In this document: positions 5,799-61,162 of the stretch, in pieces
Layout of the letters: every line of letters begins with the position of its first letter
How positions within the stretch are numbered: position 1 is the stretch's first letter
From: Thiofilum flexile DSM 14609
Lineage (GTDB): Bacteria > Pseudomonadota > Gammaproteobacteria > Thiotrichales > Thiotrichaceae
Assembly: GCF_000380185.1 (NCBI RefSeq)
Contig: NZ_KB904752.1
Coordinates: 1-64,000 of the forward strand
DNA length: 64,000 nucleotides
Direction of reading: 5' to 3'
Translations under genes and position numbers: made by a program
The notes under the pieces: generated by a model
What the model was told of the DNA's origin: nothing
The model's database searches: none
The model's input: the letters and a program-made list of their open reading frames with translations, nothing else

Positions 5799-8700
5799 CT
5801 AGGGGGATACCGGTACCCTCCCCATTACCACAAAGTTAGCTGAGTAAGTAGTATTATCAGGGTGTAATAATACGTTCCCCACCAAGACGTTCACATCGTT
5901 ATTCACACCGGCATAGATCACATCGCCGCTTAAGTTAATATCCGCATTGAAGTAACCCGGTACGATGTAATTAGAGTTCAATAACGTATTCGCTGGTGCC
6001 ATGAGTACCCCGCCTAAGATCGGGTTAATATCATTCTCGGCTCCATACGCAATCACATTCTGATCTGCATTACTATTACCCGCCCACATGAATGTTTGTG
6101 TACCATTTTCTATTTGGGCTTGTGTACCATAGGTGAGGGTGGTATTCACACGGAAGTCCACCACCGTAGCGCTGGCAACTGACAGTGCAACAGGGGCTTG
6201 AGTCATGACCGCAAGATGATTACGGTGACGCAATACCACGTAGTAGGATCCAGCACTGACACTAAAGCTCAGTTCTGGGCTATCAGTATCGGCCTCTAAT
6301 ACATTACCTTCACGAGTGAGTAGAGCCGCCTTACGGGTGATAATCACCGTAGGGTCTAGTGGATCACGTAACTCAACCAGTACCCAATCCACCACCGCAT
6401 TAGCTCCAGTAATAGCCAGACGAGCACCAGAGACGGTTTCTGTGCCGGTATAGTTAAAGCTTGGATATTGCCCATAAGGCTGAGTAGCAGGTAAGAAGCT
6501 GCGAGAGCGTAAGGCATCTTGCATCAGGCTAGTATTGGAATCATAAGGCCCTTGTAACCAACCCATCACAGTGAGTTTGATCGCCTCATTCACATCAGTC
6601 ACAGTGATAGTGAGGTCTTGGATATCTGTCCCACCATTACCATCTGATACGGTCACTTGAACCAGATAAGCATTATTCATATCCGCATCGGCGGGTGATT
6701 CAAAATCAGGAGCCGCTGTAAAGGTCAATACACCAGTACTCGGATCAATACTAAATAATGCTGCATCTGCGCCACCACTAATGGAGTAAGTCAGAGTATC
6801 CGTAGGATCGGCATCGGTTGCAGTCACTGTAGTCACTGCGGTTTGGTTTTCGGCTACGGACACTGCTGCCGTTGCTGCTCCGCCATCACTAGTGATATCG
6901 GGTGCTACATTTTCAGCAACATCGGTCACTGTAATCGTGAGGTCTTGAACATCGGTTCCGCCATTACCATCCGATACAGAGACTTGTACCTCGTAAGCAT
7001 TATTACCATCAGCATCGGTAGGTGACTCAAAGTCAGGAGCCGCTGTAAAGGTTAGGATGCCAGTACTCGGATCGATACTAAATAAGCCTGAATCTGCGCC
7101 ACCACTAATAGAGTAGGTCAGGGTATCGGTAGGATTCGCATCGGTTGCAGTCACCGTAGTCACTGCGGTTTGATTTTCAGCCACTGACAGAGCAGCGGTA
7201 GCACCACCACTATCACTGGTAATAGTGGGAGCCGCATTAATCAGGACTGCATAATCCTCAACCTCACCATCAATAGCGGCTGCCGTACTATCTAAACCCG
7301 CTACACTCGACCAACGGAAACGGGCATAGGTTTGTGTTAAAACGGCATCACTCGGTACGGCAACATTAAAACTAATCGCACCTGCAGTAGGATTCGTATC
7401 GTTTGCACCACCATCTTGTAAATCGGTCGCAATCTGTTCACTCGCATCCCATGCATTATTGCCATTCCAGTCAATCCACGCTTGTAAATAGCCCGCACCA
7501 CTAACGACTACAGGCACGACGGCGGTATTACCTTGAGTCAATAGGGGTAAAGTCACGCCATTTTCATCATCCGTCGCATCTGTATCGTCACCATCAGCAT
7601 TCATACTGGACAAGGCCGCTAATTCTGGGTCAGGGTCACCAGAGCCCATTTTGATAGTGCCGAGGATTTTGTGAGTAGGATCACCATAAACAGCAGGCGC
7701 ATCCCCACGGTCATAACCGCAACTCACCAGCTTAAACATAATATCATCCCATAACACAATAGTTGGATAAGCCTGAGAACCTGTAGAACCCGCTGCTGAT
7801 GCACCATAAACAAATACGCGAATGGTGTAAGCCGTATTAGATACTAAGGGTACTGTTGTGCCATTAGCATCAAAGCGTAATTGAGTTTGTATGCCTTGAC
7901 CTAAATCAACAGGAGTTGCAGCCACGGTTGCAGTAGAGGTATCTCCATTATTAAGACTGACATCACTGATTAAGGTAGTAGGAGAACCAAAAGCAGGATC
8001 ATCATCCACTTGAATCGCAAAATGATACGCACCCGTAGCAAAGGTATCAGCAACATCTCCCTTGTTATAGACCGATAAACTTAAGCCTGTTAATTCGGCG
8101 ACCTTACCCGCAAGATTGGCAGTGGTGAAGGTGTATTGAATATAGTAATTAGGATCATACTGAGTAGGCACAGTGGTCATATTCACTTGAGTTGTGCCGG
8201 ATTGAACTTGGCTGGCTAATCCAGTTGAGGATTCATCACCTGCAATAGCGATCAAATCTGTCCGTGCAATTTGAGCAGCAAGCGAGGTTCCCCCACTAGC
8301 ATTATGTGACCAGTAAATGCCCGCATCGGTACTTGTACTAGTAGCTGTTTGTACACTACACACACTATTGGCTAATCCAGCTCCATTCGGGAAGGCAGGA
8401 TTAGTCGTTTCAACGACATCAGTGACAGTGACGGTTATATCCTGCACATCTGTCCCACCATTACCGTCATCTACTGTGACTTGCACGATATAGGTGTTAT
8501 TGCTATCCGCATCAGTGGGTGATTCAAAATCAGGGGCAGCAATAAAGGTTAGTACGCCAGTACTAGGATCAATACTAAACAATGTTGCATCCGCTCCACC
8601 ACTAATGGAGTAGGTCAAAGTATCAGCAGGATCAGCATCCGTTGCAGTCACTGTAGTCACTGCCGTTTGATTTTCAGCCACTGACAAAGCAGCCGTTGCA

Positions 8701-11648
8701 CCACTGCCATCGCTGCTAATCACAGGCGCTGTATTAGGCGCTGCAGTAGGGCAGATATTGGCAATAGGAGTAACAAAGTTAGTAATTTGTGCAGCAGAAA
8801 GTAGGAAGGTAGAAGAGGTTTCATAGCGTCTAGGGCTAGTCTGAGATCCTTCAGGATCCATCGGATTACTTTCTATAATACCGCTCCAAGACCCACCGAC
8901 AGAGGCAATAGCTGCAGCCGCGCCATCACGCTCATCTGCTGTGATCCCATTAGGTAGCGTAAGTGCTGCGACTGAAAACTTAACACCTTGCGCTTTTAAG
9001 AGGTTATAGATGGTAAAGTTTGACCCATCATTAGGCTCGTAGCCATACCCCACGCCATCAATCATGGCAGAACCCGCGACAGATCCGTCTCGATAGGCAT
9101 CGGTGAAAATGACGATTTGTAAGGGACGAGTTAAGTCACGGCTCAGCTCTTTGAGCGGGCTTAGAATAAAACTAGAGGTAGTAATGGCATTTCCGTCAAG
9201 CGCATAGCTCAACTGATTCACAGCGCCCGCTAGATTGTCCTCACCATAATTATAAATGTTGGGAAATTGACGGACAGGAGAGGAGAGTGCAGCGGTTGAG
9301 AAATCACGTTCCAGAGAGAGATACTGACCAAAATCGGCTAGGGATACACTACCACCAGCGACAGGGCCTGCATAGTGAGCGACAGCAATACGGGTGGATG
9401 GATTAGCAGTCAGTAGCGTATTACCGATACTCACCACCGTTGAAGCATAGTCAGTATATTCTCCAGCAAGGACAGAGCCTGAGTTATCCAATAGAAAGAT
9501 GACATCGGTGCCCCCTGTAGCCGTACAAGTACCAGAACCTCCAATAGCAGGTACATTACTTTCAACAACATCGGTTACTGTAATTGTGAGGTCTTGGACA
9601 GCAGTGCCACCTCGACCATCTGATACCGTGACTTGTACAATGTAAGTATTATTCGCATCTGCATCAGTAGGTGACTCAAAGTCAGGAGCTGCATTAAAGG
9701 TTAGGACACCAGTACTCGGATCAATGCTAAAGAGTGCCGCATCTACTCCGCCACTAATACTATAGGTAAGCGTATCAGCATCCACATCGGTCGCAATAAC
9801 CGTAGTGGCGGCGGTTTGGTTTTCAGCGACTGACAGTACAGCGGTAGCTCCACCACCATTACTGGTAATCACGGGAGCAATATCTGGAGTAATGGTTAAA
9901 GCATAGTCCTCCACTTCACCATTGTTAGCTGCAAGCGTCGCATTAGCACTGGTTAGGGTATCGGTAGTGAGACGTAAACGGGCATAAGTTGTTCCACTGG
10001 CTGCAACAGCTCCAAATCCAGAGAAAGTTAAGTCGCCAGCGAGAGCATTAGCAGTAACAGTAGTGGTGGCAAACTCATTACTATCAAAGGTGCCATTATT
10101 ATTAAAGTCCACCCAAGCATAGAGAGTCCCTGTGCCTAGAGCCGTAATATTGGCAGCCGGTAAGGTATAAGTAGCACTACTACCGCCCTTAAGAGTTAGA
10201 AACGCACTTACCCCATCCTCATCATTGATACCGTTAGTATTATCACCATCAGCACCCGTACTAGTCCATGCGGCACCTTCGGATTCCACACTGGCTCCTA
10301 GATGGAGGGTAGTGCCACCATTCATCACTGCATGAGGCGGAGTACCATAGCTCGCAGGAGCATCCCCATAGTCGCGGCAGTTGGAAAATAAGGTGGCAAA
10401 ATCATCCCAGTGTACATCGGCTGTACTACTAGTCACATCATGGAAAATCACCCGCATGTAATAAGTAGTCGATGGGGCTATATAAACAGGTTTGATAATG
10501 GGAATGAATGTTGTTAGATAGGTAGGACTCGCTTGGGCTACCGCCGTATGGCTATCCACAATCAAGGTAGCATTAGTAAAGCTAGGGTCGGTAGAGAATA
10601 ATACTGAAACTTTATAGGGGAGGTTGGGTGTTGAGGCAGGAATGGTGACTCCATAGCGTAGCTGTCTGATAAAACGCCCTGCACTTAGGCTGCTGCTAGT
10701 AGTGAAAGAATACTGAGCATAATCACCGGCTTGATAGGCCGCAAGATACCCTGAATGATCAGCTCCTACCAATCTACCTGTTTGATTAGAGTTGGTATAA
10801 AGAATACCACTACCTGCCACAGCATTAGCTGCAGAGGCAATCTCTGCGGGGGCTATTATATTAGGAGCAAAGTAGTTTGGAGCACTATGAGGCCAACTAA
10901 TGACAGTAGTTGTGGGAAAGGTAGAGGAACTGTCCATTGGGCAAGTCGCGAGATTGGGGTCAGCGGGAAAAGTCTGAGGGACTGCCACACCGACGACATA
11001 ATCCTCTACCTCACCATTGGCAGCCGCACCTGTGGCATTGGCACTCGTCAGCACACTGGAGGTGAAGCGTACCCGTGCATAAGTACTACCACTCGCCGTG
11101 ACTGTACCAAAACCGGAAAAGGTTAAATCACTAGCGACTACATTGGCATTCACAGTGGTGGAGGCGAACTCAGTCGTCTCAAAGGTGCCATTACCATTAA
11201 AATCAATCCATACATACAGATTGCCGGTAGTACCTGTTACTGCGAAATCAGCCGCGTGTAATACATAGCTTGTAGCCCCTGCGTCGAGAGGAGGAATTAA
11301 TGCCCCATCATCGGAGGCATTGTCGGCATCCTGTACGGCACTGGTCTCCGACGTAATCGTAGCACCGAGTTGTGTACCCGCAACGATGGTATGGGTGGCT
11401 ACACCATAGCTTGCAGGAGCATCCGAATAGTCATCCGCCGCATAAGCAGGTGCAGCGAATGCCGTACCTAAAAGTAAACAGATTAACCCAAGACTTCGTC
11501 GAGCTGTCATCCATGACTGGGATAAGCACGAGGGCAGGGCTATTTTGTGTGGTAAAAAACGGGCAGTTAACAAATGAATAAGGTTCATAATATAAGACTT
11601 TGTTAGGTTTTTGTTAAAATATTCGTATGCTATTAGTAGTTTATTCAT
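5799..11648 (-). CDS. Secreted GEVED/vWA/cadherin modular protein, 1949 aa (giant family member 2)
   Basis: A signal peptide is cleaved near A70 (APAYA/ADDYSDAP). Domains in order: GEVED (71-222), jelly-roll-like module (about 226-425), GEVED (425-585), cadherin (588-697), von Willebrand A domain (about 700-965), cadherin (967-1080), a second jelly-roll-like module (1082-1300), GEVED (1303-1465), two cadherins (1468-1688) and the family C-terminal domain (1689-1949). The vWA domain keeps the MIDAS metal site DNSGS (in IFLLDNSGSVLAGEY) and a later IFTDAYRDGS. This suggests metal-dependent adhesion. An alternative start is ATG 11588 (MNLIHLL). The gene lies 82 bp after member 3 and 87 bp before member 1, so the three probably form one operon. 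Its vWA module is much closer to members 6 and 7 than its other parts are. Confidence 0.87.
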   Translation of the reverse strand: MNKLLIAYEYFNKNLTKSYIMNLIHLLTARFLPHKIALPSCLSQSWMTARRSLGLICLLLGTAFAAPAYAADDYSDAPASYGVATHTIVAGTQLGATITSETSAVQDADNASDDGALIPPLDAGATSYVLHAADFAVTGTTGNLYVWIDFNGNGTFETTEFASTTVNANVVASDLTFSGFGTVTASGSTYARVRFTSSVLTSANATGAAANGEVEDYVVGVAVPQTFPADPNLATCPMDSSSTFPTTTVISWPHSAPNYFAPNIIAPAEIASAANAVAGSGILYTNSNQTGRLVGADHSGYLAAYQAGDYAQYSFTTSSSLSAGRFIRQLRYGVTIPASTPNLPYKVSVLFSTDPSFTNATLIVDSHTAVAQASPTYLTTFIPIIKPVYIAPSTTYYMRVIFHDVTSSTADVHWDDFATLFSNCRDYGDAPASYGTPPHAVMNGGTTLHLGASVESEGAAWTSTGADGDNTNGINDEDGVSAFLTLKGGSSATYTLPAANITALGTGTLYAWVDFNNNGTFDSNEFATTTVTANALAGDLTFSGFGAVAASGTTYARLRLTTDTLTSANATLAANNGEVEDYALTITPDIAPVITSNGGGATAVLSVAENQTAATTVIATDVDADTLTYSISGGVDAALFSIDPSTGVLTFNAAPDFESPTDADANNTYIVQVTVSDGRGGTAVQDLTITVTDVVESNVPAIGGSGTCTATGGTDVIFLLDNSGSVLAGEYTDYASTVVSIGNTLLTANPSTRIAVAHYAGPVAGGSVSLADFGQYLSLERDFSTAALSSPVRQFPNIYNYGEDNLAGAVNQLSYALDGNAITTSSFILSPLKELSRDLTRPLQIVIFTDAYRDGSVAGSAMIDGVGYGYEPNDGSNFTIYNLLKAQGVKFSVAALTLPNGITADERDGAAAAIASVGGSWSGIIESNPMDPEGSQTSPRRYETSSTFLLSAAQITNFVTPIANICPTAAPNTAPVISSDGSGATAALSVAENQTAVTTVTATDADPADTLTYSISGGADATLFSIDPSTGVLTFIAAPDFESPTDADSNNTYIVQVTVDDGNGGTDVQDITVTVTDVVETTNPAFPNGAGLANSVCSVQTATSTSTDAGIYWSHNASGGTSLAAQIARTDLIAIAGDESSTGLASQVQSGTTQVNMTTVPTQYDPNYYIQYTFTTANLAGKVAELTGLSLSVYNKGDVADTFATGAYHFAIQVDDDPAFGSPTTLISDVSLNNGDTSTATVAATPVDLGQGIQTQLRFDANGTTVPLVSNTAYTIRVFVYGASAAGSTGSQAYPTIVLWDDIMFKLVSCGYDRGDAPAVYGDPTHKILGTIKMGSGDPDPELAALSSMNADGDDTDATDDENGVTLPLLTQGNTAVVPVVVSGAGYLQAWIDWNGNNAWDASEQIATDLQDGGANDTNPTAGAISFNVAVPSDAVLTQTYARFRWSSVAGLDSTAAAIDGEVEDYAVLINAAPTITSDSGGATAALSVAENQTAVTTVTATDANPTDTLTYSISGGADSGLFSIDPSTGILTFTAAPDFESPTDADGNNAYEVQVSVSDGNGGTDVQDLTITVTDVAENVAPDITSDGGAATAAVSVAENQTAVTTVTATDADPTDTLTYSISGGADAALFSIDPSTGVLTFTAAPDFESPADADMNNAYLVQVTVSDGNGGTDIQDLTITVTDVNEAIKLTVMGWLQGPYDSNTSLMQDALRSRSFLPATQPYGQYPSFNYTGTETVSGARLAITGANAVVDWVLVELRDPLDPTVIITRKAALLTREGNVLEADTDSPELSFSVSAGSYYVVLRHRNHLAVMTQAPVALSVASATVVDFRVNTTLTYGTQAQIENGTQTFMWAGNSNADQNVIAYGAENDINPILGGVLMAPANTLLNSNYIVPGYFNADINLSGDVIYAGVNNDVNVLVGNVLLHPDNTTYSANFVVMGRVPVSP

Positions 11649-52809: not shown

Positions 52810-55800
52810 ATGCTAAAAATAGCTAGTTTTAAAGTCAAACTGTATTGGCTATACAGTCTATTTCTCTTACTTTTTTATTTTCCTGTACCCGCGTTAGCGG
52901 CAGTACCGGCTATTGGGGGTTCTAGTACTTGTACGGCTACCGGGGGTACCGATGTACTTTTTCTAGTGGATGACTCAGGATCGGTCACTGACGCAGAATA
53001 TACTGAGTTTGCTGCAACCATAGTGAATATCGGTAATACACTGCTGGCTGCTAATCCAGCCACCCGTCTGGCTGTGGCTCATTATGCAGGGCCTGATACT
53101 GGCCCTGAGATTGGTCAACAGATCTTTCTTGAGCGTGATTTTTCGACCGCTGCACTCTCCTCTCCTGTACGTCATTTTGCCCAAACTTTGCTGTATACTG
53201 ATCATTTGGCAGGCTCTGTTTATCAAGTGAGCTATGCGCTGGATGGAGATGCTGCTACCACCTCTAGTTATATTGTAAGCCCTCTCAAAGAACTTAGTCG
53301 TGATTTAAACCGTCCTTTGCAAATTGTGGATTTTACCGATGCAATGCGAGCGGAGTCATACGGCACCGCCGTACTCCCTGGCGAAGCCAGTGCTATGATT
53401 GATATTCCGGGGTATGACTATGAACCCAATGATGCCTCTAACTTTACCATCTTCAATATATTAAAAAACCAAGGGGTTAAGTTTTCAGTAGCACTTCTTA
53501 GTTCACCTGCACCAGCGGTGACTAACCCCGCCGCCGCCGCCATTGCCTCGGTGGGTGGATCGTGGACAGGTGCTATAGAAGATAATCCGGTGGATCCTGA
53601 AGGATCTAAGACTCTCCCTAGACGTTTTGAAACCTCCGCTACTACTTTCACACTCTCTGCCACACAAATTACGAATTTTGTTACCCCCATTGCTAATATG
53701 TGCCCCTATAATGTTAATGCAGCGCCTGTGATTAGCAGTAATGGGGGTGGCGATACGGCCGCTATTAGTGTGGCGGAGAATCAAACCGCAGTGACAACAG
53801 TGACCGCCACCGATGCCGACGGGGATACCCTGACTTATAGCATTACGGGTGGAGCGGATGCGGCTAAGTTCACCATCAATAGTAGTACGGGTGTCTTACA
53901 ATTTGCCACAGCCCCTGACTATGAAGCGCCTACCGATAGTGGAGCTAATAATGTTTATGACGTTCAAGTGACGGTATCGGATGGCAGAGGTGGTACGGAT
54001 CTGCAAACCATTGCCGTGACAGTGACGGATGTCGCTGAAAGCATACCTGTTATTGGAGGTTCTGGTACTTGTACGGCTACGGGGGGTACCGATGTTGTGT
54101 TTCTATTGGATAACTCAGGATCTGTCCTTGCGGCAGAATATACTGAATATGCCTCAACGGTGGTGAGTATCGGTAATGCGCTGCGTACTGCTAATCCAGC
54201 CACTCGTATTGCTGTCGCTCATTTTGCAGGCCCCTTGAGTGGTATACCCTTCTCCGATTATGGCCAGTATCTCTCTCTAGAGCGTGACTTCTCAACCGCT
54301 GCGCTCTCCTCGCCTGTACGTCAATTTCCCAGCATTTATAACTATGGTGAGGACAATCTAGCCGGTGCTGTTACTCAATTGAGCTATGCGCTGGATGGGA
54401 ATGCCAGTACTACCTCTAGTTTTGTTCTAAGCTCGCTCAAAGAGCTAAACCGTGATTTAACTCGCCCCTTACAAATCGTCATTTTCACCGATGCCTATCG
54501 AGACGGGTCTGTCGCTGGTTCTGCCATGATTGATGGGGTGGGGTATGGTTATGAGCCGAATGATGGGTCAAACTTTACCATCTATAACCTCTTAAAAGCC
54601 CAAGGTGTTAAGTTTTCAGTCGCAGCGCTTACGCTACCTAATGGAATCACAGCCGATGAGCGTGATAAAGCGGCAGCTGCCATTGCCTCCGTGGGTGGAT
54701 CTTGGACGGGTATTATAGAAAGTAATCCGGTGGATCCTGAGGGATCTCAGACTAGCCCTAGACGTTATGAAACCTCTTCTACCTTCACACTGTCTGCTGC
54801 ACAAATTAGTAACTTTGTAACATCAATCGCTAATATCTGCGGTCCTAATGTAGCACCTGTGATTACCAGTAATGGTGGTGGTGCAACAGCGGCTATTAGT
54901 GTGGCAGAAAATCAAACGGCTGTTACAACAGTCACAGCCACCGATGCGGATGGGGATACTCTCACTTATAGCATTACAGGTGGAGCGGATGCCGCTAAGT
55001 TCACCATCGATAGCAGTACGGGGGTCTTACAGTTTGCTACAGCCCCCGACTTTGAAACGCCTACCGATTCTGGAGGCAATAATGTTTATGATGTTCAAGT
55101 CACTGTATCGGACGGTAATGGTGGTACAGATATGCAAGACATTGCAGTCACAGTGACGGATGTAGCTGAAAATGTGGCACCCGTGATTACCAGTAATGGG
55201 GGTGGTGATACCGCCGCTATTAGTGTGGCAGAAAACCAAACTGCAGTGACAACAGTGACAGCCACCGATGCCGACGGGGATACCTTAACCTATAGCATTA
55301 CAGGTGGAGCGGATGCGGCTCTGTTCACTATTGATAACAGTACCGGCGTTTTACAATTTGTCACAGCTCCCGACTATGAAGCCCCCACCGATACCGGAGC
55401 TGATAATGTTTATGATGTTCAAGTCACTGTATCGGATGGTAAGGGTGGTACGGATATGCAAGCGATTAGTGTTACCGTGACGGATGTAGCTGAAAATGTG
55501 GCCCCCGTGATTACTAGCAATGGAGGCGGTGATACTGCCTCTATTAGTGTGGCAGAGAATCAAACCGCCGTTACAACAGTTACCGCTACCGATGTGGATG
55601 GGGACAACCTCACTTATAGCATTACAGGTGGAGCGGATGCCGCTAAGTTCACTATTGATAACAGTACCGGCGTTTTACAATTTGTCACAGCTCCTGACTA
55701 TGAAAATCCTACCGATACCGGAGCCGATAATGTTTATGATGTTCAAGTGACGGTATCCGATGGTAAGGGTGGTACGGATATGCAAGCGATTAGTGTTACT

Positions 55801-56604
55801 GTTACGGATGTCGCTGAGGGGGGAGTCGTCTTACAAGTGAGAGGCTTTTTACAAGGGCCGTTTAGTAGCGAAACTCAGCTAATGTATGATTCATTACGTA
55901 CTAAAAACTTAATCCCTAGTACTCAACCTTATACCGCTGCGCCCTTTAATTACTCAGGAACTGAGCAACTCAATGCTGCTTTGTTAACCGTGAGTGATTC
56001 AAATGCGATAGTTGATTGGGTATTAGTCGAGTTACGTAATGCGACTAACCCTAGTACCCTCGTAGCACAAAAAGCTGCCTTACTACAACGAGATGGTGAT
56101 GTGGTTACAGCGGATACAGGTAGTGTGGATCTGACCTTTGCGAGTGTGGCGGCGGGTAATTACTATGTGGTCTTACGTCATCGTAATCACTTAGGTGTTA
56201 TGAGTGCGAGTGCTTTAGCTTTAAGCCCTGTCCCTAGTCTGGTTGATTTTACCTTATCCGCTACCGCTGTTTATGGCAGCTATGCTCGGTTAGAGGTGGA
56301 TAGCAAGGCGGTTATGTGGGCGGGGGATGCGAATAAAAGCAATCAAGTGATCGCCAATGGCCCTAATAATGATGTCAATGATCTATTAGGCCCTGTATTA
56401 GTTTATGAAAGCAATTCATTACTAAATAGTAACTATCAATTAGCGGGGTATCGTATATCGGATATCGATATGAATGGCTATACGCTGTTTGCAGGCCCTA
56501 GTAATGACACCAATATTGTCATTGGTAATGTATTAATGCACCCCAGTAATACTAGCCTTTCAGCCAATTTTGTGATCCCAGGTACTATTCCAAACGTCCA
56601 ATAA
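52810..56604 (+). CDS. Secreted vWA/cadherin modular protein, 1264 aa (giant family member 6)
   Basis: A signal peptide (SFKVKLYWLYSLFLLLFYF, cleavage near A30) is followed by a vWA domain (about 34-300, MIDAS DDSGS in VLFLVDDSGSVTDAEY), a cadherin-like repeat (303-410), a second vWA domain (413-680, MIDAS DNSGS, later FTDAYRDGS), three cadherins (680-1003) and the family C-terminal domain (1006-1264, LQVRGFLQGPF to GTIPNVQ). The second vWA domain is closest to that of member 2, 45 kb away. The first is more diverged, and its later acidic site reads DFTDAMRAES. It is probably a metal-dependent surface adhesin. It is expressed from its own operator-controlled promoters. Confidence 0.87.
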   Translation: MLKIASFKVKLYWLYSLFLLLFYFPVPALAAVPAIGGSSTCTATGGTDVLFLVDDSGSVTDAEYTEFAATIVNIGNTLLAANPATRLAVAHYAGPDTGPEIGQQIFLERDFSTAALSSPVRHFAQTLLYTDHLAGSVYQVSYALDGDAATTSSYIVSPLKELSRDLNRPLQIVDFTDAMRAESYGTAVLPGEASAMIDIPGYDYEPNDASNFTIFNILKNQGVKFSVALLSSPAPAVTNPAAAAIASVGGSWTGAIEDNPVDPEGSKTLPRRFETSATTFTLSATQITNFVTPIANMCPYNVNAAPVISSNGGGDTAAISVAENQTAVTTVTATDADGDTLTYSITGGADAAKFTINSSTGVLQFATAPDYEAPTDSGANNVYDVQVTVSDGRGGTDLQTIAVTVTDVAESIPVIGGSGTCTATGGTDVVFLLDNSGSVLAAEYTEYASTVVSIGNALRTANPATRIAVAHFAGPLSGIPFSDYGQYLSLERDFSTAALSSPVRQFPSIYNYGEDNLAGAVTQLSYALDGNASTTSSFVLSSLKELNRDLTRPLQIVIFTDAYRDGSVAGSAMIDGVGYGYEPNDGSNFTIYNLLKAQGVKFSVAALTLPNGITADERDKAAAAIASVGGSWTGIIESNPVDPEGSQTSPRRYETSSTFTLSAAQISNFVTSIANICGPNVAPVITSNGGGATAAISVAENQTAVTTVTATDADGDTLTYSITGGADAAKFTIDSSTGVLQFATAPDFETPTDSGGNNVYDVQVTVSDGNGGTDMQDIAVTVTDVAENVAPVITSNGGGDTAAISVAENQTAVTTVTATDADGDTLTYSITGGADAALFTIDNSTGVLQFVTAPDYEAPTDTGADNVYDVQVTVSDGKGGTDMQAISVTVTDVAENVAPVITSNGGGDTASISVAENQTAVTTVTATDVDGDNLTYSITGGADAAKFTIDNSTGVLQFVTAPDYENPTDTGADNVYDVQVTVSDGKGGTDMQAISVTVTDVAEGGVVLQVRGFLQGPFSSETQLMYDSLRTKNLIPSTQPYTAAPFNYSGTEQLNAALLTVSDSNAIVDWVLVELRNATNPSTLVAQKAALLQRDGDVVTADTGSVDLTFASVAAGNYYVVLRHRNHLGVMSASALALSPVPSLVDFTLSATAVYGSYARLEVDSKAVMWAGDANKSNQVIANGPNNDVNDLLGPVLVYESNSLLNSNYQLAGYRISDIDMNGYTLFAGPSNDTNIVIGNVLMHPSNTSLSANFVIPGTIPNVQ

Positions 56605-57370: not shown

Positions 57371-60300
57371 ATGCTAAAAATAGCTAGTTTCAAAATCAAA
57401 CTGTATTGGCTATACAGTCTATTCCTCTTACTTTTTTATTTTCCTGTACCCACGTTAGCCGCAGCACCTGCTACTGGAGGTTCTACGAGCTGTACGGCTA
57501 CCGGGGGTACCGATGTCATTTTTCTATTGGATAACTCAGGCTCTGTCCTTGCTGGAGAGTATGCTGACTATGCCTCAACGGTGTTGAGTATCGGTAATGC
57601 GCTGCGTACTGCTAATCCAGCCACCCGGATTGCTGTCGCTCATTTTGCAGGCCCCTTGAGTGGTGTACCCTTCGCCGATTATGGACAGTATCTCTCTCTG
57701 GAGCGTGACTTCTCAACGGCTGCACTTTCCTCCCCTGTCCGTCAATTTCCCAGCATTTATAATTATTCTGAGGACAATCTAGCGGGCGCTGTGAATCAAT
57801 TGAGCTATGCGCTTGATGGAAATGCCAGCACCACCTCTAGTTTTATTCTAAGCCCCCTCAAAGAGCTGAGTCGTGACTTAACTCGTCCTTTACAAATCGT
57901 CATTTTCACCGATGCCTATCGAGACGGGTCTATCTCTGGTTCTGCTATGATTGATGGGGTGGGATATGGTTACGAGCCTAATGATGGATCAAACTTTACT
58001 ATCTATAACCTATTAAAAGCGCAAGGTGTTAAGTTTTCAGTCGCCGCACTTACGCTACCTAATGGAATCACAACAGATGAGCGTGATAAAGCGGCTGCAG
58101 CGATTGCCTCGGTCGGTGGATCTTGGACGGGTATTATAGAAAGTAATCCGGCTGATCCTGAGGGGTCTCAGACTAGCCCTAGACGCTATGAAACCTCCGC
58201 TACCTTCTTACTGTCTGCTGCACAAATTAGTAATTTCGTTACCCCCATCGCTAATATCTGCCCTCCTAATGCAGTTCCTGTGATTACCAGCGATGGTGGC
58301 GGGGATACCGCTGCTATTAGTGTGGTAGAGAACCGAACCGCTGTCACAACAGTCACCGCCACGGATGCCAATGGAGATACCCTCACTTATAGCATTACCG
58401 GTGGAGCGGATGCGGCTAAGTTCACCATCGATAGCAGTACTGGCGTCTTACAATTTGTCACCGTTCCTGACTACGAAGCGCCCACCGATAATGGAGCCAA
58501 TAATGTTTATGATGTTCAAGTGACTGTAGCGGATGGTAAAGGCGGCACGGATATGCAGGCCATTGCAGTGACCGTGACGGATATGTTTGATAATCCCGTA
58601 CCGGCTATTGGAGGTTCTGGTCTTTGTACGGCGACGGGGGGGACAGATGTACTTTTTCTTTTGGATAACTCAGGATCTATTGTTCCGGCAGAATATACGG
58701 ACTTTGCCTCCACGGTGGTGAAAGTGGGTAATGCGCTGCGTACTGCTAATTCAGCCACCCGTATTGCAATAGCTCATTATGCCGGGTCTCTTGGAGGAGC
58801 AGATTTTGGTCAAAATGTCTATTTTGAGCGTAATTTTTCAACGGCGTCTGTCGCCTCTCCAGTACGCCGATTTACTCCTCCTTCTACCCCTAATATGACC
58901 GAAGATAATATGGCGGGGGCTATTTATCAAATGAGTTATGCCCTTGATGGAAATGCCAGTACCACCTCTAGTTATATTGTCGGCTCTCTTAAGGAGCTGA
59001 GTCGTGATTTAACCCGCACTTTACAAATCGTTATTTTCACGGATGCGACTCGGTACTATCCCGACTCCTCAGCCATCATTGATGGTGAGGGGTTTGGCTA
59101 TGAGCCTAATGATGGATCAAACTTTACTATCTATAATTTATTAAAAGCCCAAGGTGTTAAGTTTTCAATTACAGCGCTTTCGATAGCGGAAACAGTAGGG
59201 GGGGAAACGGTGGAGATGCGTGATGCTGCTGCCGCTGCTGTGGCCTCCGTCGGTGGGTCTTGGACAGGTGGTATAGAAACTAATCCAAATGATCCAGAAG
59301 GGTCTCAAACCTCTCCAAGGCGTTTTGAAACCACGACTAACTTTTTACTTAATGCGACACAAATTACTAATTTCGTTACCCCCATCGCTAATATCTGCCC
59401 GCTCAATGCAGTACCTGTGATTACCAGTAATGGTGGTGGAGCAACGGCCGCTATTAGTATGGCAGAAAATAAAACAGCGGTAACGACAGTAACAGCCACT
59501 GATGCTGATAACGATATCTTGACCTTTAGTATTACCGGTGGAGCGGATGCGGCTAAGTTCACCATCAATAGTAGTACTGGCGTCTTACAATTTGTCACAG
59601 CTCCCGACTATGAAGCGCCTACCGATTCTGGAGCCAATAATGTTTATAATGTTCAAGTCACAGTCGCTGATGGCAAAGGTGGCACAGATATGCAGGCCAT
59701 TGCGGTGACAATAACTAATGTGGTGGCTGAAAATGCTCCCCCAGTGATTACCAGTAATGGTGGTGGTGATACAGCCGCTATCAGTGTGCCAGAAAATCAA
59801 ACCGCAGTTACAACCGTCACCGCGACGGATGCGAATGGGGATACCTTAACCTATAGCATTACAGGTGGAACTGATGCAGCTAAGTTCACCATCAATAGCA
59901 GTACGGGCGTCTTACAATTCGTTACAGCACCAGACTTTGAAACGCCTACCGATAATGGGGCTAATAATGTTTATGATGTTCAAGTCACGGTCTCCGATGG
60001 CAAAGGCGGCACAGATATGCAAGCCATTGCAGTCACAGTGACTAATGTGGTTGAAAATGTTCCCCCTGTGATTACCAGCAATGGTGGTGGAGATACCGCA
60101 GCAATCAGTGTGGCGGAGAATCAAACTGCAGTCACAACGGTCACGGCAACTGATGCGGACGGGGATACCCTGACTTATAGCATTACAGGTGGAGCGGATG
60201 CGGCTAAGTTCACCATCAATAGTAGTACCGGAGTTTTACAATTTGTCACCGCTCCCGACTATGAAGCGCCAACCGATAGCGGAGGCAATAATGTTTACGA

Positions 60301-61162
60301 CGTTCAAGTGACAGTCTCTGATGGCAAAGGCGGCACGGATATGCAGGCTATTGCAGTCACAGTGACTAATGTGGCTGAAGGTGTTGTATTACAAGTGAAG
60401 GGTTTCTTACAAGGGCCGTTTAATGCTGAGACTTATTTGATGCATGATTCATTACGTATTCTCAATATAATCCCTAATAGCCAACCCTATACGATAACCC
60501 CCTTCGGCTATACTGGCACAGAGCCGTTAAATAATACTCTGCTAACAGTCAGTGGTGTTGATGCTATAACTGACTGGATACTAGTCGAGTTACGTAATGC
60601 GACTAACCCTTCTATCATAGTGGCACAACAAGCGGCTCTCTTACAGCGTGATGGGGATGTGGTGACGGCGGATACCGGGAGTGTGAATCTGACGTTTGCG
60701 AGTGTGATGGCGGGTAATTACTATGTGGTCTTACGTCATCGTAATCACTTAGGTGTTATGAGCGCGAGTGCTGTAGCTTTAGGTTCTGCGCCTAACTTAG
60801 TTGATTTTACCTTATCCGCTACCGCTGTTTATGGCAACAATGCACGGTTAGTGGTGGATAGTAAAGCCGTTATGTGGGCAGGGGATGCGAATAAAAGCAA
60901 TCAGGTGATCGCAAATGGCCCTAATAATGATGTCAATGGTCTATTAGGACCCATATTAGTGTATGAAGGTAATACATTACTGAATAGTAACTATCAATTA
61001 AATGGGTATCGTATATCCGACGTCGATATGAATGGCTATACGCTATTTGCAGGCCCTAGTAATGATACTAATCTTGTCATAGGTAATGTTTTAATGCACC
61101 CCGGCAATGCTAGCTTTTCAGCAAACTTTGTAGTGCCAGGTACTATTCCAAACGCCCAATAA
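57371..61162 (+). CDS. Secreted vWA/cadherin modular protein, 1263 aa (giant family member 7)
   Basis: This is the tandem duplicate of member 6, with the same signal peptide (cleavage near A30), layout and length. vWA domain 1 (about 35-298, MIDAS DNSGS) is followed by a cadherin-like repeat (298-405), vWA domain 2 (411-678, DNSGSIVPAEY, with FTDATRYYPDS), three cadherins (679-1000) and the family C-terminal domain (1003-1263, LQVKGFLQGPFN to GTIPNAQ). The first vWA domain of this protein resembles the second of member 6 and that of member 2, so modules have been exchanged or converted. It is probably exported and surface-exposed. Confidence 0.87.
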   Translation: MLKIASFKIKLYWLYSLFLLLFYFPVPTLAAAPATGGSTSCTATGGTDVIFLLDNSGSVLAGEYADYASTVLSIGNALRTANPATRIAVAHFAGPLSGVPFADYGQYLSLERDFSTAALSSPVRQFPSIYNYSEDNLAGAVNQLSYALDGNASTTSSFILSPLKELSRDLTRPLQIVIFTDAYRDGSISGSAMIDGVGYGYEPNDGSNFTIYNLLKAQGVKFSVAALTLPNGITTDERDKAAAAIASVGGSWTGIIESNPADPEGSQTSPRRYETSATFLLSAAQISNFVTPIANICPPNAVPVITSDGGGDTAAISVVENRTAVTTVTATDANGDTLTYSITGGADAAKFTIDSSTGVLQFVTVPDYEAPTDNGANNVYDVQVTVADGKGGTDMQAIAVTVTDMFDNPVPAIGGSGLCTATGGTDVLFLLDNSGSIVPAEYTDFASTVVKVGNALRTANSATRIAIAHYAGSLGGADFGQNVYFERNFSTASVASPVRRFTPPSTPNMTEDNMAGAIYQMSYALDGNASTTSSYIVGSLKELSRDLTRTLQIVIFTDATRYYPDSSAIIDGEGFGYEPNDGSNFTIYNLLKAQGVKFSITALSIAETVGGETVEMRDAAAAAVASVGGSWTGGIETNPNDPEGSQTSPRRFETTTNFLLNATQITNFVTPIANICPLNAVPVITSNGGGATAAISMAENKTAVTTVTATDADNDILTFSITGGADAAKFTINSSTGVLQFVTAPDYEAPTDSGANNVYNVQVTVADGKGGTDMQAIAVTITNVVAENAPPVITSNGGGDTAAISVPENQTAVTTVTATDANGDTLTYSITGGTDAAKFTINSSTGVLQFVTAPDFETPTDNGANNVYDVQVTVSDGKGGTDMQAIAVTVTNVVENVPPVITSNGGGDTAAISVAENQTAVTTVTATDADGDTLTYSITGGADAAKFTINSSTGVLQFVTAPDYEAPTDSGGNNVYDVQVTVSDGKGGTDMQAIAVTVTNVAEGVVLQVKGFLQGPFNAETYLMHDSLRILNIIPNSQPYTITPFGYTGTEPLNNTLLTVSGVDAITDWILVELRNATNPSIIVAQQAALLQRDGDVVTADTGSVNLTFASVMAGNYYVVLRHRNHLGVMSASAVALGSAPNLVDFTLSATAVYGNNARLVVDSKAVMWAGDANKSNQVIANGPNNDVNGLLGPILVYEGNTLLNSNYQLNGYRISDVDMNGYTLFAGPSNDTNLVIGNVLMHPGNASFSANFVVPGTIPNAQ

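Follow-up and report, generated by a model that had tools for sequence, protein, structure and literature searches.

A vWA module shuffled among large, differently built genes in the genome of Thiofilum flexile

A von Willebrand factor A (vWA) module carried by four large genes of Thiofilum flexile DSM 14609 has moved between scaffolds within this genome: the tree of the module conflicts with the tree of the scaffolds, and the conflict goes beyond what protein-level selection produces. Such intragenomic domain shuffling had been proposed in an initial annotation of the same DNA, which saw in one gene (member 2) a vWA placed in a different scaffold; the module trees, the contrast at synonymous sites and the sharp module edges described below bear this out. 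The window, i.e. the whole stretch of DNA that was analysed, is 64 000 nt long and belongs to contig 7 of a genome of 3.79 Mb in 71 contigs.

A family of large genes with a common C-terminal domain

The window contains seven large ORFs that share a C-terminal domain (CTD) of ∼250 residues. Genome-wide we counted 25 such loci; outside the window, several family members have gene starts that were set mechanically, and in some the 5′ end is truncated by a contig end. The CTD was found in 24 of the 60 family genomes searched (the genome studied here included). No Pfam or NCBIfam model matched the CTD; for the CTD and the lectin-like segments together, Pfam gave no match and NCBIfam a single sub-threshold one, taken as chance. 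The CTD may merit a family model of its own, and its role is perhaps that of a sorting or anchoring domain. Two family members, L015 (C32c) and L016 (C19), are 96.8% identical over 2949 bases and both open at a contig end, which points either to duplication in the very recent past or to one locus split by the assembly.

Member 2 (positions 5799-11648, minus strand, 1949 aa) has three GEVED domains, four cadherin-like repeats and one vWA, in the order signal peptide, GEVED, lectin-like segment, GEVED, cadherin, vWA, cadherin, unmatched segment, third GEVED (GEVED-c), two cadherins and CTD. GEVED (PF20009) scores above the Pfam cut-off in member 2 (120.8 bits, three stretches) and in member 3 (176.9 bits, five stretches). 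The unmatched segment, at residues 1090-1310 (7719-8381) and reaching up to the start of the next GEVED, has no match above 30 bits among the other family members compared and no Pfam model. The second GEVED of member 2 (9891-10379) and that of member 1 are 92.6% identical in protein (88-98% in windows), with 76.5% for the first GEVED. A recent conversion between members 1 and 2 in the second GEVED received no clear support from fourfold sites (44/89 in agreement vs 28/72 in the first GEVED).

Members 6 and 7 are on the plus strand and have two vWAs and four cadherin-like repeats each. Member 6 (52810-56604, 1264 aa) reads signal peptide, vWA of type B, cadherin, vWA of type A, three cadherins and CTD; member 7 (57371-61162, 1263 aa) reads signal peptide, vWA of type A, cadherin, vWA of type C, three cadherins and CTD. 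Six vWAs of this kind exist genome-wide, five in the window and one on contig 8.

The type-A vWA of members 2, 6 and 7 and of a gene on contig 8

The vWA of member 2 (m2v; 8745-9545, minus strand, residues ∼702-968) had been described as nearly the same, residue for residue, as the second vWA of member 6 (m6v2; 54052-54840, plus strand) and the first of member 7 (m7v1; 57476-58264, plus strand). Both this likeness and the coordinates given for it are confirmed. All three are open modules, and over 263 codons m2v is 90.1% identical to m6v2 in amino acids (89.0% in nucleotides) and 90.9% identical to m7v1 (89.4%). One of the two stretches reported as shared, GYGYEPNDGSNFTIYNLLKA, is exact in m2v, m6v2, m7v1 and the contig 8 copy; the other, SPLKELSRDLTRPLQIVIFT, is unaltered only in m2v and m7v1 and differs at two positions in m6v2 and at one in the contig 8 copy. 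The remaining vWAs of members 6 and 7, the type-B first vWA of member 6 (m6v1; 52912-53706, plus strand) and the type-C second vWA of member 7 (m7v2; 58607-59401, plus strand), are divergent.

The fourth copy of type A (C8v; contig 8, 48805-49602, hence apart from the contig of the window) is part of C8b, an ORF of 1155 aa with GEVED, cadherin, vWA, cadherin and CTD; C8v and m2v are 89.5% identical in amino acids. When residues 691-960 of member 2 were compared in windows of 60 aa, members 6 and 7 and C8b matched at 89-123 bits and all the others of the 24 genes compared at 24 bits or less. The similarity of m2v to m6v2 and m7v1 is far above chance and above the background of the gene family. 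Members 1 and 3, the relatives of member 2 by CTD, had no vWA in a whole-genome search.

Module edges and module trees

The high similarity of member 2 to the region of m6v2 has sharp edges: DNA identity is 67% for the cadherin upstream, rises to 89% within the vWA and is 72% downstream; in windows of 25 codons the values are 63-71, 75-95 and 61-77%, respectively. The cadherin directly upstream of m2v (c1; 9561-9878, minus strand) is 66-68% identical in nucleotides to the corresponding repeats of members 6 and 7 and C8b. For both cadherins flanking m2v the range against members 6 and 7 is 66-72% in DNA, and the CTDs are 48-51% identical in protein. In C8b the edge lies elsewhere: against member 6, DNA identity is 84% in the upstream cadherin, 87% in the vWA and 65% in the downstream cadherin.

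In the vWA DNA tree m2v, m6v2, m7v1 and C8v form a clade (97/98) with m6v1 and m7v2 outside, and five outgroup modules from four relatives are far off. The module of member 2 is thus nested among modules of the member 6/7 type and is not an old outgroup, as the initial annotation had expected of a module-by-module phylogeny. A first protein tree did not separate the four-copy clade from m7v2; a later one, to which two outgroup rows had been added, did (97/99). In this later tree L037 was left out on account of its stop codons, and L031-L035 were omitted as loci of G008, G014, G004 and G024 already present. AU tests rejected a clade of all four member 6/7 vWAs without m2v (p = 0.029) as well as the positional pairs m6v1 with m7v1 (p = 0.021) and m6v2 with m7v2 (p = 0.025), values of 0.02-0.03 that are modest and are raw values from six tests. 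The partner of m2v was not ranked by the AU test, with p = 0.237 for C8v, 0.247 for m6v2 and 0.089 for m7v1.

The other modules have different trees. In the CTD tree the CTD of member 2 (5802-6560, minus strand) falls in a clade with those of members 1 and 3 and C8b (98/98), whereas members 6 and 7 are sisters (97/90). Within that clade member 2 is sister to member 3 (97/88), in line with the assignment of the remainder of member 2 to the GEVED group; that assignment holds for the CTD and the N-terminal third, and it fails for residues 1081-1290, where no other family member matches above 30 bits. In a tree of 46 cadherin repeats (hits below 50 bits or covering fewer than 85 model positions were dropped) the repeats of member 2 group with those of members 1, 3, 4 and 5. 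This includes c1, which groups with the repeats of members 1-5 and not with those of members 6 and 7, and the cadherin directly downstream of m2v (c2; 8409-8729, minus strand), which is nearest to the second repeat of member 3 and the fourth of member 2, again not to members 6 and 7. The C8b repeat just before C8v is inside a nine-row member 6/7 cadherin clade (100/100), nearest to the third repeat of member 7 (99/83), and the second C8b repeat is outside that clade. Finally, the third GEVED of member 2 (7239-7715, minus strand) has as its sister the only GEVED that C8b carries (91/88, 51% identity in amino acids), with a long branch for member 2. Each kind of module thus gives a different history, as shuffling predicts.

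Agreement at fourfold sites

Between member 2 and member 6 (m6v2), fourfold sites agree at 98 of 139 positions in the vWA and at 25 of 59 in the CTD (Fisher p = 3.7e-4). The corresponding counts are 104/136 vs 18/60 for member 2 and member 7 (m7v1; p = 1.1e-9) and 98/138 vs 25/68 for member 2 and C8b (p = 4.3e-6). Agreement of member 2 with members 6 and 7 is therefore 71-76% in the vWA and 30-42% in the CTD, and in all five cross-scaffold pairs the vWA shows far higher agreement at these fourfold-degenerate sites than the CTD does.

The pair of members 6 and 7 serves as an internal control: here vWA (94/135) and CTD (64/95) are alike at fourfold sites (p = 0.77), which indicates that the vWA is under no special synonymous constraint. 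The contrast in the cross-scaffold pairs thus argues that the vWA module was copied and not merely conserved. It also follows from this contrast that the vWA copies spread long after the backbones had split, at about the age of the duplication that gave members 6 and 7, a timing that rests on one genome of the genus.

Conflict among the four copies

Among the four type-A copies there are 41 sites at which two copies share one base and two another: 17 unite m2v with m6v2, 13 with C8v and 11 with m7v1; 29 of the 41 are third codon positions. We compared the number of gap-free minor-split sites with simulations over 762 sites (gapped codons removed, at the cost of one of the 41 two-to-two sites), in which GTR was used per site class, with separate fits for fourfold sites and for the remaining third positions. 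The observed number is 23. Simulation on the ML tree gave 6.6 (sd 2.5), with maxima of 15 and 16, and simulation on a star tree gave 6.9, with a maximum of 14; 23 sites were reached in none of the 500 replicates of each of three sets (1500 in total), all simulated without codon preference, which would raise chance parallel change.

The two-to-two patterns are weakly clustered (p = 0.016). Longest-run tests on polymorphic sites in the six pairs of copies were not significant (all p at least 0.054, the best value), and the longest exact shared run is 51 nt in any pair and 41 nt between m2v and any copy. Judged by these site patterns, the excess of conflict fits short patches of later gene conversion. 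Gene conversion, which the initial annotation had offered beside domain shuffling together with a test for tracts at the DNA level, is therefore probable as later mosaicism, to which the excess and clustering of conflicting sites point, and not as one recent tract, which the longest runs do not reveal.

Predicted fold and metal site

The predicted structure of m2v (m4d326320ea14), made with a 12-row alignment, has a mean pLDDT of 57 and a pTM of 0.69; an earlier model (5 rows, pLDDT 40) was not used. Compared with the I domain of integrin alpha-M (1mf7), the model gives Z = 18.0 and rmsd 3.0 over 186 aligned residues, and the predicted fold is that of vWA/I domains. The Pfam VWA model scores m2v alone at 21.2 bits, under the cut-off of 23.8, and members 6 and 7 above the cut-off.

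Residues D20, S22, S24, D103, T148 and D149 are invariant in all 12 rows of alignment A3, as well as in the 11 rows of A2, C8v among them. The model thus resembles integrin alpha I domains (1mf7, 1ido) in its fold and in the invariant motifs D-x-S-x-S and T-D, while identity to them is only 15% and an invariant Asp103 stands just ahead of helix 105-117. This presumably corresponds to the position held by the MIDAS Thr in alpha I domains, which in integrin beta I domains is occupied by an acidic residue. Given the motif and the secondary structure around Asp103, the predicted metal site of m2v may depart from the classical one and be a modified MIDAS. The adhesive metal-site module of the initial annotation is thus a putative one.

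Relatives of the module in other genomes

A search of the contigs of other genomes with a single vWA sequence returned no loci, and a search with alignment A2 returned eight: six in Thiothrix-named genomes (one of the Thiothrix species is also named ‘Thiolinea’ eikelboomii), one on a plasmid of Thiothrix fructosivorans and one in a Neomegalonema MAG. Within the class, the vWA module is present in 2 of 369 genomes, that of T. flexile included. A locus in a Candidatus Thiothrix singaporensis MAG (L037, 6001-6782) has several stops in the vWA frame, so that either the copy is disrupted or the assembly is at fault.

The Neomegalonema locus (L030, 5740-10329) encodes a signal peptide, a vWA and, after it, three GEVEDs together with lectin-like segments. 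The vWA of this locus belongs to the same subfamily (63% in the alignment, 58% by tblastn) and is placed on the side of the window vWAs, not of the Thiothrix vWAs (100/100). It differs from the genes described here in the 68.6% GC of its contig, in a vWA that directly follows the signal peptide and in a translation without a cadherin block. The position of its vWA in the tree may point to a transfer across class boundaries, from one filamentous bacterium to another.

DISCUSSION

The history that very probably accounts for these data is that the type-A vWA comes from the lineage of members 6 and 7, was copied to C8b and to member 2 and later underwent conversion in patches. The 25 CTD loci are built from interchangeable blocks (GEVED, cadherin, vWA and others). 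The lineage of members 6 and 7 is the most likely place of origin of type A, since three vWA types are found there, members 1 and 3 have no vWA and the C8b copy is accompanied by a cadherin of the member 6/7 type. The module would have been copied into C8b together with its upstream cadherin and into member 2 alone, either from member 6 or 7 or via C8b, at roughly the time of the tandem duplication of members 6 and 7; the similar ends of cadherin and vWA may have supplied the homology for the joins. The four copies would then have traded short patches, with gene conversion as the probable mechanism behind the observed conflict. The order B-A in member 6 and A-C in member 7 could both derive from an ancestor of the order B-A-C, each gene having lost one vWA.

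A direct exchange across 45 kb between member 2 and members 6 and 7, as originally envisaged, is not supported in that form, because the C8b copy shares two indels with m2v and has an upstream cadherin of the member 6/7 type. The two features common to m2v and C8v, a 2-residue insert and a 3′ linker longer by three codons, suggest that C8b or its ancestor may have been the nearer source for member 2. Against this hint, the N-terminal codons of m2v match m6v2, and the AU test leaves the pairings unranked.

The least probable account is old vertical inheritance, in which the type-A vWA was ancestral to all these genes and strong protein selection kept it alike. Many vWA residues are indeed invariant over the family, and in Thiothrix relatives too vWA and CTD share one long ORF, so their pairing is old; the synonymous contrast nevertheless leads us to reject this account, as it is seen in five cross-scaffold pairs and is missing between members 6 and 7, and the absence of a vWA from members 1 and 3 and the cadherins around m2v, which follow the scaffold and not the vWA, speak against it as well. 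We also regard as very improbable a single recent gene conversion of member 2 with member 6 or 7. The location on opposite strands of the same contig, the 89% identity in DNA and the sharp edges would suit such an event, but 24-30% of the fourfold sites differ, no long tract is significant, the two indels tie m2v to the C8 copy, and m2v is no nearer to m6v2 or m7v1 than these two are to each other (89.8% in nucleotides). An explanation that stops at one-time shuffling, with the conflicting sites as chance parallel changes at fast synonymous sites and no later conversion, is unlikely in our judgement: the predominance of third codon positions and the lack of significant longest runs agree with it, but neither ML-tree nor star-tree simulations ever produced the observed number of minor-split sites.

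With copying followed by patch conversion as the preferred reading, shuffling would have placed one vWA head on different stalks. We take the product to be, most probably, a long protein of the cell surface whose stalk of cadherins and GEVEDs would present one vWA head or two, each resembling an integrin I domain and holding a divalent metal. A bolder proposal, which we consider doubtful, is that the 25 loci are a self-diversifying repertoire, a combinatorial adhesin system of a filamentous environmental bacterium, in which cadherin repeats would act as interchangeable joints, vWA heads would pass from stalk to stalk and ongoing conversion would preserve their exchangeability.

A similar case is that of the bab paralogues of Helicobacter pylori (PMC4552749), surface adhesin genes that are reported to relocate and to undergo gene conversion. 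There whole segments of close paralogues are concerned, whereas here it is a single module in scaffolds otherwise saturated at synonymous sites. The fibrillar adhesins with CshA_NR2 and GEVED domains (PMC10952558), in which NR2-like domains sit upstream of GEVED, are likewise modular surface proteins with GEVEDs, put together through domain shuffling in a range of bacteria, and together with the architecture they suggest that the proteins described here may function in adhesion. The main text of that paper, however, is without mention of von Willebrand, VWA, cadherin or recombination, and it sets architectures of species side by side, whereas we compared copies within one genome at synonymous sites. 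In the open-access literature searched, neither the module nor shuffling of vWAs in Thiotrichaceae turned up. That GEVED surface proteins undergo domain shuffling (PMC10952558) and adhesin paralogues undergo conversion is already known, and the present case is a well-resolved further example.

What we describe, module shuffling and then probable sequence exchange in giant surface proteins of a relative of filamentous sulfur bacteria, is of an ordinary kind and unusually well documented. Shuffling of adhesin modules is usually inferred from architectures compared between species. With one module in four genes of a single genome and backbones that are synonymously saturated, the relative timing, the edges and the later exchange become measurable. 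Once a second strain is sequenced, the rate of module exchange in the surface proteins of filament-forming bacteria would be directly measurable.
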